Shown here: one piece after another, positions 13,828 to 53,989 of the stretch | Numbering within the stretch: the stretch's first letter is position 1 | Layout: the number at the start of each line of letters is the position of its first letter | Assembly (NCBI GenBank): GCA_020850535.1 | Contig: JADZEM010000174.1 | Span: forward strand, 1-64,000 | Direction: 5' to 3' | DNA length: 64,000 bases | Origin: Chloroflexota bacterium | Lineage (GTDB): Bacteria; Chloroflexota; UBA6077; JACCZL01 | Program-made: the position numbers and the translations under genes | Notes under the pieces: generated by a model | The model's input: the letters and a program-made list of their open reading frames with translations, nothing else | Told to the model about the DNA's origin: nothing | Database searches by the model: none

Positions 13828-13915
13828 CACGGGAAACTCGTCTGCTCCAGCAAGCGTCTGCGCGGGGAGTGTAGCCGCCACACGGTGAGCCCCGCGAACA
13901 ACCACCATGCAGTCG

Positions 13916-14132
13916 CAGGGCGATTGCATGATGGGCACGTCCCGCAGCGTCGTCGGGGCTTGAAAGCCCCGCCTACGATCCTGCAGTCGCTGCGCGACGC
14001 TCCAGTCGCACCAGTGCCTGCCGTTCCCGACGGCCGTCGCGCAGCGACTGAATGACTGTGGTCGGGGACTGAAGTCCCCGACCGCCCGTTCCATGATGCT
14101 TCGGGTACACCAACGAACATGCAACCGCCCTG
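13916..14132. mobile_element. MITE-like inverted-repeat element, copy A (217 bp)
   Basis: The element ends in 15-bp terminal inverted repeats, CAGGGCGATTGCATG (13916-13930) and CATGCAACCGCCCTG (14118-14132), with one mismatch. Inside are two short hairpins, GTCGGGGCTTGAAAGCCCCGC and GTCGGGGACTGAAGTCCCCGAC, and a nested inverted pair CAGTCGCTGCGCGAC/GTCGCGCAGCGACTG, so the whole unit folds into one long stem. It has no coding capacity. It is nearly identical in structure and equal in length to copy B ten bases downstream. Confidence 0.85.
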
Positions 14133-14142
14133 AGTCACGAAC

Positions 14143-14359
14143 CGGAGCGATTGCATGTTGATGTCGTCGTGCCGCCGCGTCGGGGCTTGAAAGCCCCGCC
14201 TACCATCCTGCAGTCGCTGCGCGACGCTCCAGTCGCACCAGTGCTTGCCGTTCCCTGCGTCCGTCGCGCAGCGACGGCGTGACTGTAGGCGGGGACTTCA
14301 GTCCCCGACCGCCCGTTCCATGATGCTTCGGGTACACCAACGAACATGCAACCGCCCTG
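14143..14359. mobile_element. MITE-like inverted-repeat element, copy B (217 bp)
   Basis: Same orientation and exactly the same length as copy A. The left end CGGAGCGATTGCATG has two changes from copy A; the right end CATGCAACCGCCCTG is identical. The internal hairpins and CAGTCGCTGCGCGAC inverted pair are kept. Divergence between the copies is concentrated in the first 40 bases and around 14250-14290. It ends 135 bases before cysK. Confidence 0.85.
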
Positions 14360-14407
14360 CAGTCAGCCGTCAGCCCTGGCGCAGCGCATCACGATCAGCA
14401 CACATAG

Positions 14408-15669: not shown

Positions 15670-17025
15670 TCAGAAGGCCGGCGGCGTCTGGACGTTGACG
15701 GTCACGTTCTTCCGCTGCGTGAAGCTCTCAAGCATGCCCTCAAGCGAGAACTCCCGACCGATACCGCTCTGCTTGTAGCCGCCGTACGAGTGCCCTGGCG
15801 TCTGTCCGAGGCCCTGGTTGACCTGGACCCAGCCCGCCTCCACCGCGTGCGCTGTCCGCAGCGCCCGTCCGATGTCGTGGGTCCAGACGTAGGCGGCCAG
15901 CCCGTAGTGGGAATCGTTCGCCATGCGGATGACGTCCTGCTCGTCAGTCCAGCGGATCGCGACCAGGACCGGCCCGAAGATCTCCTCGCGGGCGATGCGC
16001 CAGTCGTTAGAGACGTCGGCGAAGACCGTCGGGAGGGCGAAGTACCCGGCTGACAGCGGACCTTCCTTCGGCGGCAACCCGCCAAGCACCAGGCGCGCAT
16101 CCGCCCGTTCGAGGCCGTCTGCGACGTACGAACAGACCTGCTTGAACTGCTTCTCGTTGATCAGCGTCCCGATGTCGCTGGCCTCGTCGAGCGGATCGCC
16201 CAGCCGCAGCGTCGCGACCTTCACGGCGAGCTTCTCCAGAAAGCTGTCGAAGATCGAGGCGTGCAGGAACAGCCGTGAGCCGGCCGTGCACGACTGGCTC
16301 TGGCGGGTGAAGCGCATCGCCGCGATGATGCCGTCAACCACCCAGTCCTCGTTCGCGTCGGGGAACACGATGGACGAACTCTTGCCGCCCAGCTCCAGCG
16401 AGACCGGCACGACCCGCTCGGCGGCAGCGCGCATCACCAGTTTCCCGACCTCTGTGGAGCCGGTGAACGAGAGCTTGGCGATGCCCGCATGTTGGATCAG
16501 CGCGCTGCCGCACTCCTCGCCGAGGCCCGTCAGCACGTTGAGCACGCCCGGCGGCAGGATCTCGGAGGCCACCCGCGCGACGAGCAGCACACCCAGCGGC
16601 GCATCTTCGGCCGTCTTGAGGACGATGGTGTTGCCGGTGCAGAGGGCCGGCGCGATCTTGAGCGCGGCCAGGAGGACGGGCGCATTCCAGGGGATGATCG
16701 CGCCGACGACGCCGAGCGGCTCGCGTCGGGTGTAGCTCAGAACCTGCTCGCCGAGCGGGAGCGTCTCACCCTTCAGCTCGCTACCAAGGCCGCCAAAGTA
16801 GCGGAAGATGTCTGCCGAGAGGCGCGCCTCATTGCGAGCCTGGGTCCGCAGGGCGTTTCCCGTCTCCAGCGCAATGATCCGCGCCAGCTCCTCGCCGCGG
16901 GCATCCAGCGCATCGGCGATCCTCAGCAGCAGCCGACCTCGGTCGCGCGGGATCACGGTGCGCCAGGAGGCGAACGCGGCCTGGGCGGCCTGGACCGCCC
17001 GATCCACGTCGGCGGCACGCACCAT
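15670..17025 (-). pseudogene. Aldehyde dehydrogenase lacking its N-terminus
   Basis: The frame encodes most of an NAD(P)-dependent aldehyde dehydrogenase: IIPWNAP with the Asn of the active site, SLELGGKSS with the general-base Glu, RQSQSCTAGSR with the catalytic Cys, and EEIFGPVL. The homologous sequence starts abruptly at VRAADVDRAVQAA, so about 35-40 residues of the usual N-terminal strand and NPATGEV segment are missing. An ATG at 17025 could start a 451-residue product. Further upstream the frame is antisense to a binding-protein fragment. The break coincides with the start of that fragment, indicating a rearrangement. It may still be expressed, but loss of the N-terminal oligomerisation strands makes activity doubtful. 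Confidence 0.7.
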
Positions 17026-18300
17026 GTCACGGTCAACCTCTTCAATGGGCTTGTCGGGCTCGACGCCGACCTCAACCCGGTGCCGGATCTCGCAGAGAGC
17101 TGGGTCGTCTCTCCGGACGGCAAGACGGTGACCTTCACGCTGGCGTCGGGTGTGCTCTGGCACGACGGCCAGCCGTTCACCTCGGCAGACGTCGCGTTCA
17201 CGTTCCAGGACATCCTGCTCAAGTACCACTCGCGCACCAGGGCCGGATTGGAGCACGTCCTCGAAGGGATCGATGCGCCAGACCCCCAGACCGTCGTCAT
17301 GCGATTCACGTCAGCGTATGGCCCGCTGCTCCAGCGCCTCGACGTGGTGGAGGCGGCCATCCTCCCCAGACACATCTACCAGGGCAGCGACCCGGAGCAC
17401 ACCGACGCCAACCTGCACCCGGTCGGGACCGGGCCGTACCGGCTGGCCGAGTATCGCAGCGGCGACATGGTCCGGCTGGTACGGAATGAGCGCTACTTCA
17501 AGCCTGGCCTGCCCTACCTGGACGAGCTGGTGTACATCATCGTCGCCGACACGGCCACGGGCGTCTGGGCCTTTGAGCGCGGGGACGTCGATCTGCTGAC
17601 CTCGACGCCGCCCACCGAGATGGCTCGGCTCCAGGCAGGCGGAAAGGCCGTTGTCAAGACGGCTGGCTTTGGCGACGGCAACTCGAACTGCCAGGAGACG
17701 ATGTTCTTCAACCTCCGGCGTCCGATCCTCCAGCGTCGTGAGGTCCGGCAGGCCATCGTCCACGCCGTTGACCAGCAGCGCATTCTCGACGAGGTGCGCT
17801 TCGGCCTGGGCAAGGTGGGGAGCAGCCCGATCTCCAGCGCCCTGGCCTGGGCGCACCATCCCCACGTTCGGCGCTACCCGCACGACCCGGCGCAGGCCGA
17901 GCGGCTGCTCGACGACGCCGGCTGCCGGCGGGGTACAGATGGCGTCCGCTTCAGCCTGGGCATGCCGTCGCTGGCCGTCCTGGAGAAGCTGCACGAGGCG
18001 ATCCGCCGCGATCTCGCTGCCGTGGGGATCGCCGTCCAGATTCGGCCGATGGAGTTCAACGCCGCGCTCGACACGCTGTTCATCAAGCGCGAGTTTGACG
18101 TCAGCATCTGGGGCTACTGCAACGGCCCAGACCCCGAGGTTGGTGTGACGCGAGCCCACGTCACCTCGAACATCAAGCCGATCCCGTTCGCGAATGTCGC
18201 CGCGTACGCCAACCCACGCGTGGACGCGCTGCTTGAGCGCGCCGCCAGCCTGATCGACCGGACCGAGCGCGCCGCCGTCTACGCCAGGATTCAGGAGGAG
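17023..18300 (+). pseudogene. Family-5 ABC solute-binding protein fragment (both ends missing)
   Basis: The reading frame from HVTVNLFNGLVGLD onward matches dipeptide/oligopeptide/nickel-type binding proteins: DLAESWVVSPDGKTVTF, LASGVLWHDGQPFTSADVAFTF, VGTGPYRLAEYRSGDMV and RREVRQAIVHAVDQQ. The signal peptide and about 60-80 N-terminal residues are absent. At the 3' end the frame passes directly into an aldehyde-dehydrogenase tail at YARIQ/EEIFGP, removing the C-terminal lobe. No ribosome-binding site or start is present. The open frame continues to 18600, so it has not accumulated stops, which suggests a recent event. Confidence 0.75.
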
Positions 18301-18600
18301 ATCTTCGGTCCCGTCCTCTCGGTGATCGAGTTCACCGACGTGGATGAGGCGGTCCACATCGCGAACGGCACCTGCTACGGCCTGGGCGCGTCGGTCTGGA
18401 CCCGCGACATCCAGCGCGCGATTCAGCTCGCGAAGAGCATTGAGTCCGGCCAGGTCTACGTCAACCAGTACGGCTCGGCCGGCGTCATCGGTGCGCCGTT
18501 CGGCGGCTACAAGAACAGCGGCTTCGGGCGGACGAACTGCGCCGACACGATCCTGGAGTACACCCAGATCAAGGCGGTCGTGTTCAACGCCGGCCAGTAG
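18292..18600 (+). pseudogene. Duplicated 3' end of an aldehyde dehydrogenase gene
   Basis: Bases 18292-18600 are about 96% identical (11 differences in the 300 bases from 18301) to 23992-24300, exactly 5,700 bases away. Both end at the same GGCCAGTAG stop. It encodes EEIFGPVLSVIEFTDVDEAVHIANGTCYGLG through the C-terminus, without the catalytic Cys or Glu. Fused in frame to the binding-protein fragment, it forms a chimeric ORF. Identity begins at CAGGAGGAG, which also fits the expected IQEE of the binding protein, so the joint lies in a short shared sequence. Confidence 0.85.
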
Positions 18601-19334: not shown

Positions 19335-20849
19335 CTACGAGGGCAGGGCCACCACCACCGACTTGACCTCGGTGTACAGCTCCAGCGCGTAGTGCCCCAT
19401 CTCACGGCCCCAGCCAGACTCCTTGTAGCCGCCGAATGGCAGCGCGGCGTCGAAGACGTGGTAGGTGTTGATCCAGACCGTGCCGGCCTTGAGTTCGGCC
19501 GCCAGCGCGTGGGCCTTCGCCACGTCCTTCGTCCAGATGCCGGCCGCCAGGCCGTAGGTCGTGTCGTTCGCGATGCCGGCCAGCTCGTTGATGTCGTCGA
19601 ACGGCAGCGCCACCACGACCGGCCCGAAGATCTCCTCCTGGACGATCTTCATCTCCTGCTTGGCGTCCACAAGCACCGTCGGTTGGAAGAAGTAGCCGCG
19701 CTCGCCGAAGCGGCTGCCGCCGACCAGCGAGCGAGCGCCCTGCTCCGCGCCAGACTGGAGGTAGCCGGTCACGCGCCGCAGCTGCTCGTCGGAGATCAGC
19801 GGCCCCATCTGGGTGTCGGGGTCGAAGGCGTTGCCGAGCTTGATGCCCTCGGCGGCGTCCGCCACGCCCTGGGCGACCTCGTCAAAGACCTTCCGCTGCA
19901 CGTACAGGCGGGAGCCGGCGTTGCAGCACTGGCCGTGGTTGAAGAAGATCGCGTTGGACGCCCCGGCGATGGCGGCCGGCACGTCGGCGTCGTCGAACAC
20001 GATGTTGGGTGACTTGCCGCCCAGCTCCAACGAGACCTTCTTGAGGTTGCCGGCCGCCGCCTGGACGACGATCTTGCCGACCTCGCCCGAACCGGTAAAG
20101 GCGACCTTGTCCACGTCCGGATGCGCCGCCAGGGCCGCGCCGGCCGTCTCGCCAAAGCCGGTGACGATATTCACGACGCCGTTCGGGATGCCAGCCTCGG
20201 CGATCAGCTCGCCGAGGCGCAGGGCCGTCAGCGGTGTCTGCTCGGCCGGCTTCAGCACCACCGTGCAGCCCGTCGCCAGGGCCGGGCCAAGCTTCCAGGC
20301 CGCCATCAGCAGCGGGAAGTTCCAGGGGATGATCTGCGCGACCACGCCAATCGGCTCGTGGCGGGTGTAGGCGAAGAACCTGTGGCCCGGCAGCGGGATG
20401 TTCGAGATCGGGATGGTGTGGCCCTCGATCTTCGTGGCCCAGCCGGCCATGTAGCGGAGCAGATCGACGGCCAGCGGCACGTCGGCGGCCCGGGCCACCG
20501 CCACCGGCTTGCCGTTGTCGAGCGCTTCGAGCTGGGCGAACTCCTCAGCGTTCTGCTCGAGCAGGTCGGCCAGCTTCCAGATCATCCGGCCCCGCTCGGA
20601 CGGCGAGACGCTCCTGCGCCACGGGCCGACCTCGAAGGCCCGGCGAGCAGCCGCGACGGCCTTCTCGACGTCCGCCTTGTCGCCCTCAGCCACCTGGGCA
20701 ATGACCTCTTCGGTGGCTGGATCGAACACGTCGAAGACCTTGCCAGACGCCGCCTGCACCCACTGGCCGTCGATGAGCATCGGGCGCGGGCTGCCGACGA
20801 ACTCGGCGACGTTCGCGCCCAACCCCGGCCTGCTCTCTGTCAGTACCAC
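19335..20849 (-). CDS. NAD(P)-dependent aldehyde dehydrogenase (class 1/2, betaine- or phenylacetaldehyde-type)
   Basis: A 504-residue cytoplasmic enzyme oxidising an aldehyde to the acid. Active-site residues are all present: Asn177 in IIPWNFP, Glu275 in LELGGKSP and Cys309 in NHGQCCNAGSR, the double-Cys form typical of ALDH1/2-like enzymes. The cofactor loop FTGSGEVGK (251-259) is intact. The GTG at 20849 follows GAGAAGGGG by seven bases; the longer frame adds 20 residues without a ribosome site. The putative promoter is TTGAAT-17-CATAGT, whose -35 lies inside a 52-bp palindrome. The aldehyde substrate is unknown. Confidence 0.9.
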   Translation of the reverse strand: MVLTESRPGLGANVAEFVGSPRPMLIDGQWVQAASGKVFDVFDPATEEVIAQVAEGDKADVEKAVAAARRAFEVGPWRRSVSPSERGRMIWKLADLLEQNAEEFAQLEALDNGKPVAVARAADVPLAVDLLRYMAGWATKIEGHTIPISNIPLPGHRFFAYTRHEPIGVVAQIIPWNFPLLMAAWKLGPALATGCTVVLKPAEQTPLTALRLGELIAEAGIPNGVVNIVTGFGETAGAALAAHPDVDKVAFTGSGEVGKIVVQAAAGNLKKVSLELGGKSPNIVFDDADVPAAIAGASNAIFFNHGQCCNAGSRLYVQRKVFDEVAQGVADAAEGIKLGNAFDPDTQMGPLISDEQLRRVTGYLQSGAEQGARSLVGGSRFGERGYFFQPTVLVDAKQEMKIVQEEIFGPVVVALPFDDINELAGIANDTTYGLAAGIWTKDVAKAHALAAELKAGTVWINTYHVFDAALPFGGYKESGWGREMGHYALELYTEVKSVVVALPS

Positions 20850-20924
20850 GGTGTACCCCTTCTCACTCGCAACGTTCGGTCTGGTGTGGCGACCAGCAAG
20901 CGCGAGCACCAGCCTGCGCGACTA

Positions 20925-20953
20925 CTATGGCGCAGACCACCCTGACTATTCAA
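20925..20953 (-). promoter_or_regulatory. Putative promoter of the aldehyde dehydrogenase at 20849
   Basis: On the minus strand TTGAAT (20953-20948) and CATAGT (20930-20925) are separated by 17 bases. The -35 element lies within the left arm of the 52-bp palindrome, so a protein bound there would block RNA polymerase. Confidence 0.5.
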
Positions 20954-20988
20954 ACACGGAATATTCCGTGTTTGAATAGTCAGGGTGG
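20937..20988. promoter_or_regulatory. 52-bp perfect palindrome with two overlapping 19-bp operator dyads
   Basis: The 26-base arms are perfectly complementary with no loop, centred between 20962 and 20963 on GGAATATTCC. Each outer arm holds CTATTCAAA/TTTGAATAG. Two 19-bp sites overlap: CTATTCAAA-C-ACGGAATAT (20946-20964) and its mirror ATATTCCGT-G-TTTGAATAG (20961-20979). These match the dyads at 22761, 25122, 31807, 31835 and 31972. There is no T tract, arguing for an operator over a terminator. Confidence 0.75.
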
Positions 20989-21055: not shown

Positions 21056-22549
21056 CTACAGCTGGATCACCACCGACTTCACCTCGGTGTACAGCTCCAG
21101 CGCGTTGTGGCCCATCTCCCGGCCCCAGCCGGACTGCTTGAAGCCGCCGAACGGCAGGGCCGGATCGCCGACGTTGTAGCAGTTGACCCAGACCGTCCCC
21201 GCGCGCAGCTTCGCGGCCACCCGGTGGGCCTTGCGGACGTCCGTGGTCCAGATGCCGGCGGCCAGGCCGTAGGTCGTGTCGTTCGCCCGCTGCGCCACCT
21301 CTTCGATGTCGTCGAACGGCATCGCCGAGATGACGGGGCCGAAGATCTCCTCCTGAGCGATCCGCATGCCGTCCTGCACGTCGGCGAAGACCGTCGGCGG
21401 GACGAAGTAGCCGTTGGCCAGCTCGCCCTCGGTCAGGCGCGCCCCGCCGACCGTCGCCCTGGCCCCCTCATCCGCCCCAAGCTGCAGGTAGCTAGTGACC
21501 CGCTCGATCTGCTGCTGCGAGACCAGCGGCCCGATCTGCACATTCGGATCGAGGCCGTTGCCGACCTTCAGCTCTGAGGCGAAGTTCGACAGGCGCTCCA
21601 CGAACTCGTCGTGCACCTTGCGCTCGACGAAGAGGCGTGTTCCAGCGCTGCAGATCTGTCCGGAGTTGGCGAAGACCGCCATCGCCGCCCCGGGGACGGC
21701 TGCGTCAAGGTCGGCGTCGGCGAACACGACGTCTGGCGACTTGCCGCCCAGCTCCAGGGACACCCGCTTCAGGTTCAGCGCCGACGAGCGGATGATCTCC
21801 TGGCCCGTCACGTGTGACCCGGTGAAGGCGACCTTGTCGACGTCGAGGTGCCGCGCCAGGGCCGCGCCGGCCGTCTCGCCGTAGCCGGGCACCACGTTGA
21901 CGACGCCATCGGGAACCCCAGCCTCCTGGCACAGCTCGGCGAAGCGGAGCGGGGTCAGCGGCGCCTCTTCGGCCGGCTTGAGGATCACGGTGCAGCCCGT
22001 CGCGATGGCCGGCCCGACCTTCCAGATACAGGCGCCGAGCGGCCCGTTCCAGGGGATGATCGCGCCGACGACGCCGACCGGATCCTTGAGGGTGAACGAG
22101 ACGTACTCGCCGGGCAGCGAGTTCTCGATGGTCTCGCCGTGGATGGCCGTCGCCTGTCCAGCGTACCAGCGGAGCATCCCGAGCGCCCGCCGCCTGGTGG
22201 ACATGGTGCGGCTGACCGGCGCGCCCATGTCGAGCGTGTCGAGGGTGGCAAGCTCCTCGAAGTGCTCCTCCACCAGATCGGCCAGTTTGAGCAGGATCGC
22301 CTGCCGCTCGTACGGCTTGACCTTGCTCCACGGCCCCTCGAACGCCGCCCGCGCCGCCCTGACCGCCCGGTCGATGTCGACGGCGTCACCCTCGGCGACC
22401 GTCGCGAGCACCTCCCCCGTGGCCGGATTGACGCTCTCGAAGGTCTTGCCCGAGGCCGCGTCGACCCACTGACCGCCGATCAGCATCTTCTTCGGCGTGC
22501 CGTCCAGGAACGGATGCCGCGTGTTGGCCCATGCGCCTGCTAGCGCCAT
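21056..22549 (-). CDS. NAD(P)-dependent aldehyde dehydrogenase
   Basis: A 497-residue enzyme of the same family as its neighbour, with Asn168 in IIPWNGP, Glu266 in SLELGGKSP, Cys300 in NSGQICSAGTRL and the cofactor loop AFTGSHVTGQ. It is full length, beginning MALAGAWANT with the oligomerisation strand MLIGGQWVDAASGK (22-35). It is transcribed away from the dehydrogenase at 22816; the 266-base gap contains a TATAAT and a 19-bp dyad. Together with 19335 it forms a same-strand pair separated by the palindrome. The substrate cannot be told apart from related aldehydes. Confidence 0.9.
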   Translation of the reverse strand: MALAGAWANTRHPFLDGTPKKMLIGGQWVDAASGKTFESVNPATGEVLATVAEGDAVDIDRAVRAARAAFEGPWSKVKPYERQAILLKLADLVEEHFEELATLDTLDMGAPVSRTMSTRRRALGMLRWYAGQATAIHGETIENSLPGEYVSFTLKDPVGVVGAIIPWNGPLGACIWKVGPAIATGCTVILKPAEEAPLTPLRFAELCQEAGVPDGVVNVVPGYGETAGAALARHLDVDKVAFTGSHVTGQEIIRSSALNLKRVSLELGGKSPDVVFADADLDAAVPGAAMAVFANSGQICSAGTRLFVERKVHDEFVERLSNFASELKVGNGLDPNVQIGPLVSQQQIERVTSYLQLGADEGARATVGGARLTEGELANGYFVPPTVFADVQDGMRIAQEEIFGPVISAMPFDDIEEVAQRANDTTYGLAAGIWTTDVRKAHRVAAKLRAGTVWVNCYNVGDPALPFGGFKQSGWGREMGHNALELYTEVKSVVIQL

Positions 22550-22760: not shown

Positions 22761-22779
22761 CTATTCAAACTTTGAATAG
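22761..22779 (+). promoter_or_regulatory. Operator dyad CTATTCAAA-C-TTTGAATAG
   Basis: This perfect 19-bp dyad has nine-base arms around one central base. It sits 37 bases before the GTG of the aldehyde dehydrogenase at 22816, next to a TTGATA (22753-22758) that could be its -35. It is the cleanest member of the operator family described for this region. Confidence 0.75.
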
Positions 22780-22815
22780 ACTGTCAAGGAGCTTTCCGCA
22801 GGGAGGACTAGCATC

Positions 22816-24300
22816 GTGGCAGTGAGCGCTCCGCCTCAGACTCGGGCCCCTGGCATCCTCGAACAGGTTCCTGACGGTGTCCAGTTCATCGGGGGCGTCT
22901 GGACCCCCGCGAAGCACGGCGAGACCATCGCCGTCATCAACCCCGCCTCGGGCGAGCATCTGCGAAGCGTGCCGCGCGGCGGCGCCGACGACGTTGCCGA
23001 GGCCGTGTCGGCGGCGGCGGCGGCGTTCCCGAAGTGGCGCGACCTGAGCGCCACCCAGCGCGGCAACCTGATCCGCCGCTGGGGCGACATCTGCAACCAG
23101 CACGCCGAGGACATCGCGATCCTCGAGTGCCTGGAGGTCGGCAAGCCGTTCAAGGGGCCGGCCAACGTTGGCGACCGCGCCATCTACTTTGCCGGGCTGG
23201 CCGACAAGCTGACCGGCGACACGCTGCCCTCGGCCAACCCGAACGTGCTCGGCATCACCCTGCGCGAGCCGTACGGCGTCTGCGGCAGCATCGTCCCCTG
23301 GAACTTCCCGCCCCACCTGATGATGAGCGACGTGGCCCCGGCCATCGCGGCTGGGAATACCATCGTGGTCAAGCCACCCGAGGACGCGCCGATCACCTGC
23401 CTCTACCTGGCGAAGCTGGCGCAGGAAGCTGGCATCCCGGACGGCGTGATCAACGTCGTCACCGGCTACGGCTCCGAGGCCGGCTCGGCCCTGCCGCTGC
23501 ATCCGCTGGTCCGCCACATGAGCTTCACCGGCTCGCCGGAGACCGGCTCGAAGGTGATGACGGCCTGCGCCCAGCGGCTGATCCCGCTGCACCTGGAGCT
23601 GGGCGGGAAGTCGCCGCAGGTCGTGCTGCGCGATGCCGACCTCAACGCGGCGGTCCCACACATCGTCCGCAACTTCACCAGCAACGCCGGTCAGGTCTGC
23701 GTGGCCGGGACGCGGCTAGTGGTCGATCAGTCGGTGCGCTCGCAGATCGTCGAGGCGATCGCGGCCGAGATGGAGCGGGTGCGGGTTGGCCACTGGTACG
23801 AGGACGTGGACATGGGGCCGCTGATCTCCAAGAAGTAGGAGAATCGCGTGCTCGGCTACATGGACGTCGCGCAGCAGGAAGGCGTCCAGGTGGTCGTCGG
23901 CGGCAACAAGCTCGGCGGGGCCAAGTTCGACAACGGCTTCTTCGTCGAGCCGACGCTCTTCGACAACGTCAAGCCGGACATGCGGGTCGCCCAGGAGGAG
24001 ATCTTCGGTCCCGTCCTCTCGGTGATCGAGTTCACCGACGTGGACGAGGCGGTCCACATCGCGAACGGCACCCGCTACGGCCTGGGCGCGTCGGTCTGGA
24101 CCCGCGACATCCAGCGCGCGATTCAGCTCGCGAAGAGCATCGAGTCCGGCCAGGTCTACGTCAACCAGTACGGCTCGGCCGGCGTCATCGGTGCGCCGTT
24201 CGGCGGCTACAAGAACAGCGGTTTCGGCCGGACTGGCGGCGTCGACACGATCCTGGAGTACACCCAGATCAAGGCGGTGGTGTTCAACGCCGGCCAGTAG
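22816..24300 (+). pseudogene. Aldehyde dehydrogenase interrupted by an in-frame amber codon
   Basis: A full-length aldehyde dehydrogenase frame of 494 codons is broken at codon 341 by TAG (23836-23838). Translation is GPLISKK-stop-ENRVLGYMDVAQQEG; relatives have Gln there (SKKQxxRVLGY), so one CAG-to-TAG change explains it. Both parts are in the same frame with no indel. Glu261 (LELGGKSP) and Cys295 (NAGQVCVAGTR) are in the first part; the C-terminal EEIFGPVLSVIEF and oligomerisation segment are in the second. The start is GTG with GGGAGGA upstream, 37 bases after an operator dyad. The downstream piece may be re-initiated at GTG/ATG near 23848 but would be inactive alone. Recent inactivation, suppression or a sequence error are all possible. 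Confidence 0.85.
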
Positions 24301-24309
24301 GCCCGATGC

Positions 24310-24348
24310 GTGTCTCTGGCGGCAGGCGTGGCCTGCCGCCAGAGACAC
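24310..24348 (+). terminator. 17-bp perfect stem-loop terminator
   Basis: Bases 24310-24326 (GTGTCTCTGGCGGCAGG) pair perfectly with 24332-24348 around a five-base loop. It begins ten bases after the aldehyde dehydrogenase stop and lies between convergent genes, so it can act in both directions. Confidence 0.75.
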
Positions 24349-24398
24349 CCCACACCAGCCGGTACGCCTGACGCGCTGCCAGTCGTTGCCGGCCGTCT

Positions 24399-53468: not shown

Positions 53469-53728
53469 ATGCGCTGCCCAACCTGCAACGCCAGCTTTCA
53501 CGAGGGGACGGCCGAGCTGCTCGGCCTCTCGCTGATCCAGTCCTTGGGGCTGATGGGCGACGGGCTGGACTGGACCGTCTACGCCACCTTCCTGCTGGTC
53601 GAGAGCGTCGGCCTGCTGGCGCTCGGGGCGGCGCTGCGCTGGCGCAACACGTTCCTGGCCGGCGCACTGGCCTTTGCGGGCGCTGAACGCGTGGTACCTC
53701 GTGGCGCTGATCGGGCTGACGCTGATCG
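53469..53728 (+). pseudogene. Remnant of a Cys-motif membrane protein, joined to an inverted-repeat element
   Basis: The frame starts MRCPTCNASFHEGTAELL with a CxxC knuckle and runs into a membrane segment (WTVYATFLLVESVGLLALGAAL). Near 53685 the hydrophobic sequence switches frame: NAWYLVALIGLTLIG is read in another frame, so a small indel has occurred. At 53729 the coding sequence meets the hairpin element; beyond it any continued translation is repeat-derived. The intact gene was probably a small zinc-ribbon membrane protein. Confidence 0.6.
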
Positions 53729-53895
53729 GTCGGGGACTGAAGTCCCCGCCTACAGTCGTTCAGTCGCTGCGCGACGGACGCCGGGCACGGCAGGCACTGG
53801 TGCGACTGGAGCGTCGCGCAGCGACTGCAGGATCGTAGGCGGGGCTTTCAAGCCCCGACGCGGGGGCACGACGCGCTCGACATGCAATCGCCCTG
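53729..53895. mobile_element. MITE-like inverted-repeat element, copy C (truncated)
   Basis: Opposite orientation to copies A and B. It contains GTCGGGGACTGAAGTCCCCGC, the inverted pair CAGTCGCTGCGCGAC/GTCGCGCAGCGACTG and GGCGGGGCTTTCAAGCCCCGAC, and ends in CATGCAATCGCCCTG (53881-53895). About 48 bases with the other terminal repeat are missing at the side that touches the gene remnant. Confidence 0.8.
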
Positions 53896-53989
53896 CCCCG
53901 CTCACCTCTTCCTGTACGCGGGAGCGGGGGAGTCCGCATTGCTGTTCGCATGAGTGACAGCATCGTCATTGATTCAAAGAGATGCAACT

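Follow-up and report, generated by a model that had tools for sequence, protein, structure and literature searches.

Illegitimate recombination at short stretches of homology has been described in bacteria, for example at 9-bp borders (PMC11111574). The locus described here resembles bacterial pseudogenes and fusions formed by deletion between short direct repeats in that neighbouring genes are truncated, ~6-9 bp may be shared at the joint, no reciprocal product is found and no mobile element is visible at the joints. It departs from that pattern in carrying two scars within 1.3 kb and in that the partner gene, ALDH-B, is separately broken by a stop codon; in addition, the ancestral gene order that we propose below is seen in neither relative compared (G001 and G002). 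The truncated binding-protein gene belongs to the SBP_bac_5 family (PF00496), and its middle domain shares ~59% protein identity with the corresponding dipeptide/oligopeptide ABC operons of the same organism family (G001:C345 and G002:C19), whereas both ends of the binding protein (SBP) and the dppB/dppC orthologues of those operons are missing here. The other family is that of the aldehyde dehydrogenases (PF00171), of which the window contains two intact copies, two that are broken but near full size, and a 309-bp tail. Relative to the PF00171 profile, this tail comprises positions 365-461 only, ALDH-A lacks positions 1-25 and ALDH-B contains a TAG.

The window, a stretch of 64,000 nucleotides, lies on an 82-kb contig (C174) of a Chloroflexi-type draft assembly (G000; 7.65 Mb in 227 contigs) with 96% completeness and 4.6% (4.58%) estimated contamination. 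Comparisons were made with two members of the same family that represent other genera (G001 and G002) and, for ALDH-A, with a homologue from G004. The base rate of repeats was taken from a 755-kb sample of the window's assembly, ~10% of the genome. Coordinates are collected in Table 1.

Table 1. Genes, gene remnants and joints of the locus, with the analyses that define them.
Feature	Position	Strand	Basis
ALDH-A, aldehyde dehydrogenase	15670..17016	-	Pfam Aldedh, alignment to G004 homologue (60% identical)
Left joint, CGGCGGC(A)	17010..17017	.	Alignment with G001, G002 and G004 homologues
SBP_bac_5 extracellular solute-binding protein gene, middle part	~17011..18297	+	Pfam, nucleotide identity, protein alignment
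Right joint, CAGGAG(GAG), start of ALDH QEEIFG motif	18292..18300	.	Alignment to relatives
ALDH-B-like gene end, last 309 bp, in-frame fusion to SBP fragment	18292..18600	+	Repeat search, alignment
Intact aldehyde dehydrogenase between damaged copies	19335..20909	-	Pfam Aldedh 1-461
Intact aldehyde dehydrogenase between damaged copies	21056..22549	-	Pfam Aldedh 1-461
ALDH-B, full-length tail homologue, interrupted	22816..24300	+	ORFs, Pfam, alignment to relatives

At the left of the locus, the Pfam Aldedh match of ALDH-A starts at profile position 26 and continues to the profile end, and the protein lacks ~47 N-terminal residues; the Glu and Cys active-site motifs (LELGGKS and QSCTAGS) are retained and there are zero internal stops. 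Its missing start was searched for elsewhere in the assembly and was not found. The SBP fragment on the opposite strand, which is responsible for the SBP_bac_5 match of the plus-strand ORF at 16489-18600 (Pfam, E 6e-79), lacks ~111 N-terminal and 44 C-terminal residues relative to intact relatives and is likewise free of internal stops. Of 70 columns without variation in eight other sequences, it departs at 6, against 0-19 in intact homologues, so that there is no excess of change at conserved columns. The freedom of both genes from internal stops and this lack of excess change agree with an earlier note on this DNA, which had proposed recent breakage at short homology. That note had also described the two genes as losing their N-termini abruptly at a single point, and this stands; the position that it gave, 17023-17025, does not, since alignment with homologues places the joint 6-15 bp to the left. 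The string at this joint fits both the ALDH-A and the SBP sequence, and the divergent start regions of the two genes are gone.

With the G002 SBP as query, the best match in the window's own genome is the fragment itself, over residues 110-546 only. Neither of the missing SBP ends was found in the assembly, although for the C-terminus this result comes from a short query run without a positive control. Orthologues of dppB and dppC were not found in the assembly either, the best DppB/DppC homologues standing at 47%, versus 82% and 77% in G001. The SBP gene is complete in G002 and complete at its 3′ end in G001, and in both relatives dppB and dppC lie directly 3′ to it. In G002 the operon is flanked by lexA and a ParA-like gene; the G001 contig is just 3.7 kb long.

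At the right joint, the earlier observation that the SBP fragment reads in frame into a ~96% identical copy of the ALDH-B end 5,700 bases away is confirmed by both the repeat search and Pfam, and its placement of this joint agrees with the alignment. The direct repeat (18292-18600 and 23992-24300, spaced by exactly 5700) contains 11 differences in 309 bp, with similarity stopping 2-3 bases past the stop codon, and within the plus-strand ORF the match to Aldedh positions 365-461 (Pfam, E 6e-34) follows that to SBP_bac_5. When the dispersed hairpin family is masked, no other repeat with 85% identity or more in the 755-kb sample is as long as this pair, and so the pair does not reflect chance or background. 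The joint is read from GTTCAGGAGATCCTC in the G002 SBP gene versus GCCCAGGAGGAGATCTTC in ALDH-B. The string CAGGAGGAGATCTTCGG is also present in both intact intervening ALDH genes (at 19624 and 21339, minus strand), where it recurs as the coding sequence of the conserved QEEIFG motif. The joints are compatible with homology of up to 7 nt at the left (CGGCGGC) and 6 nt at the right (CAGGAG), both being upper estimates, as the native flanks had to be taken from other genera, which share 68-71% identity; at a random joint, homology of at least 6 nt has a probability of 0.0035 (0.35%).

Six of the 11 substitutions between the tail and ALDH-B are silent, versus 24% expected (P=0.03). Six of the 11 differences also fall within ~20 bp (18522-18542; P=0.0008), and a search of the rest of the window and of the 755-kb sample gave no source for this patch. 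Four codons are replaced in the tail, three of them adjacent, and the change from GGV to NCA removes a glycine that is conserved in nearly all relatives. Because the changes are enriched for silent ones, the pattern suggests that the pair goes back to two working genes, already diverged under selection when one of them was truncated, and not to a freshly copied tail. ALDH-B, which the earlier note had named as the parent of the copy, is itself broken: bases 23836-23838 form an in-frame TAG at a position where the closest relatives have Gln, and the gene is thereby split into two ORFs. This TAG may reflect either a true nonsense mutation or an error in the sequence.

Several further features accompany the ALDH genes. 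At their 3′ ends (19353-19571 and 21068-21286), the two intact copies are 83% identical, and another 300-bp part is 67% identical; the higher identity at the 3′ end possibly arose by gene conversion. One ALDH gene is preceded by a near-perfect long palindrome, CCCTGACTATTCAAACACGGAATATTCCGTGTTTGAATAGTCAGGG, at 20938-20987, and ALDH-B by a short one resembling it, CTATTCAAACTTTGAATAG, at 22764-22782; the two look like putative sites of a common regulator. Just past the ALDH-B stop, at 24310-24349, is a perfect-looking long hairpin (GTGTCTCTGGCGGCAGGC / GCCTGCCGCCAGAGACAC) that is absent after the copied tail.

The window also contains a dispersed repeat (at 13910-14365 and 53727-53896), with a ~227-bp unit and hairpin arms (GTCGGGGCTTGAAAGCCCCGCCTAC...). 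It often occurs as head-to-tail pairs and forms 42 islands in the 755-kb sample, and several contigs end within it. No Rfam structured RNA matched anywhere in the window, this repeat included. A mobile element at the joints was considered and rejected: the hairpin repeat is at neither joint, and the repeat search showed no flanking repeats there.

Taken together, the locus probably bears the scars of two deletions, within a cluster of aldehyde dehydrogenase and ABC-transporter genes that is in decay. In the ancestor that we infer, ALDH-A (minus strand) and the SBP gene (plus strand) would have been divergent neighbours, with the dppB and dppC permease genes 3′ to the SBP gene and a second, ALDH-B-like gene farther on in the same direction. 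One deletion, near CGGCGGC, would have removed the shared upstream region together with both start regions. Another, from CAGGAG in the SBP gene to CAGGAG in the ALDH gene, would have eliminated the end of the SBP gene, the permeases and approximately the first three quarters of the ALDH gene, leaving its last 309 bp in frame behind the SBP fragment. The interval presumed lost in this way is that in which the permeases of G001 and G002 are found, 3′ to the SBP gene. Since ALDH-A is arranged head to head with SBP, and the tail has the same direction as SBP, two deletions suffice and an inversion is unneeded. Thus, the inverted event that the earlier note had envisaged can be replaced by a single deletion across divergent start regions, which yields an inverted break, and the recent copying of the tail by a second deletion, which yields the fusion, the silent changes fitting an older divergence between genes. 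The failure to find reciprocal halves also fits deletion, as an inversion or translocation should leave them elsewhere; nevertheless, the missing ends could sit in the unassembled few per cent of the draft. Deletion does not account for the ~20-bp cluster of tail differences.

The deletions may have proceeded by slippage or short-homology recombination. Ku-dependent end joining was rejected: no match to the Ku gene family (PF02735) was found in the assembly, while a B. subtilis control and two relatives did match. Slippage or another Ku-independent route therefore appears more likely.

A less probable explanation is that the locus is an assembly chimera, in which contigs or reads of strains or relatives assembled together were connected at one or both joints, the tail coming from the ALDH-B allele of a different strain. 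The draft is in 227 contigs with estimated contamination of 4.58%, the tail and ALDH-B differ mostly at silent sites, as strain alleles would, and neither missing SBP end is present in the assembly. However, the strings shared at the joints are ~6-17 bp long, versus contig-end dovetails of 49 and 104 bp, which makes a misjoin in the assembly graph unlikely, and the explanation calls for two joins of this kind at a distance of 1.3 kb. The SBP fragment also matches its host in composition and nearest relatives: GC3 is 0.88-0.95 on all sides of the joints with alike codon composition, the nearest sequences found are those of host-family relatives (71% and 68% nucleotide identity), and the nearest named relative is a Chloroflexi MAG.

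A copying model that follows the earlier note, with template switching or gene conversion carrying the final 309 bp of ALDH-B over 5.7 kb into a broken SBP gene and an inversion forming the left joint, seems unlikely. The presence of the copy on the same contig, its end 2-3 bases past the stop and the repetition of the joint string in four ALDH sequences would all suit it, but it demands both an insertion and an inversion although two deletions are enough, the copy is enriched for silent substitutions and the reciprocal halves were not found. More doubtful still is the specific idea that the tail is a product of template switching among the QEEIFG-coding strings dispersed over the four ALDH sequences; if that were true, short conserved coding motifs would be recurrent points of rearrangement in a Ku-less genome.

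That the SBP-ALDH fusion is a working protein is highly improbable: the frame is open over 703 codons (16489-18600) and the SBP part retains most conserved residues, but the N-terminal part is antisense of ALDH-A and so supplies neither a lipoprotein nor a signal region, the cofactor and catalytic regions are missing from the ALDH part, which has also lost a near-universal glycine, and both family relatives carry a separate SBP with its own C-terminus. Alignment with related genomes, one of the checks proposed in the earlier note, thus indicates that the fusion is not conserved in G001 and G002. The frame is indeed still open, as had been noted, yet this carries little weight: the upstream part is open because it crosses ALDH-A antisense in GC-rich DNA, just as the long minus-strand ORF crosses SBP antisense, and openness is thus weak evidence of function.

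Under the two-deletion explanation, the event is most simply explained as ordinary gene decay, with no new gene or system. For annotation, the 703-codon ORF should not be described as a fusion protein, nor the long minus-strand ORF as a full dehydrogenase, and the ALDH-B entry should carry a note of its interruption. More generally, an inverted break between two genes can arise by simple deletion across a divergent promoter region.
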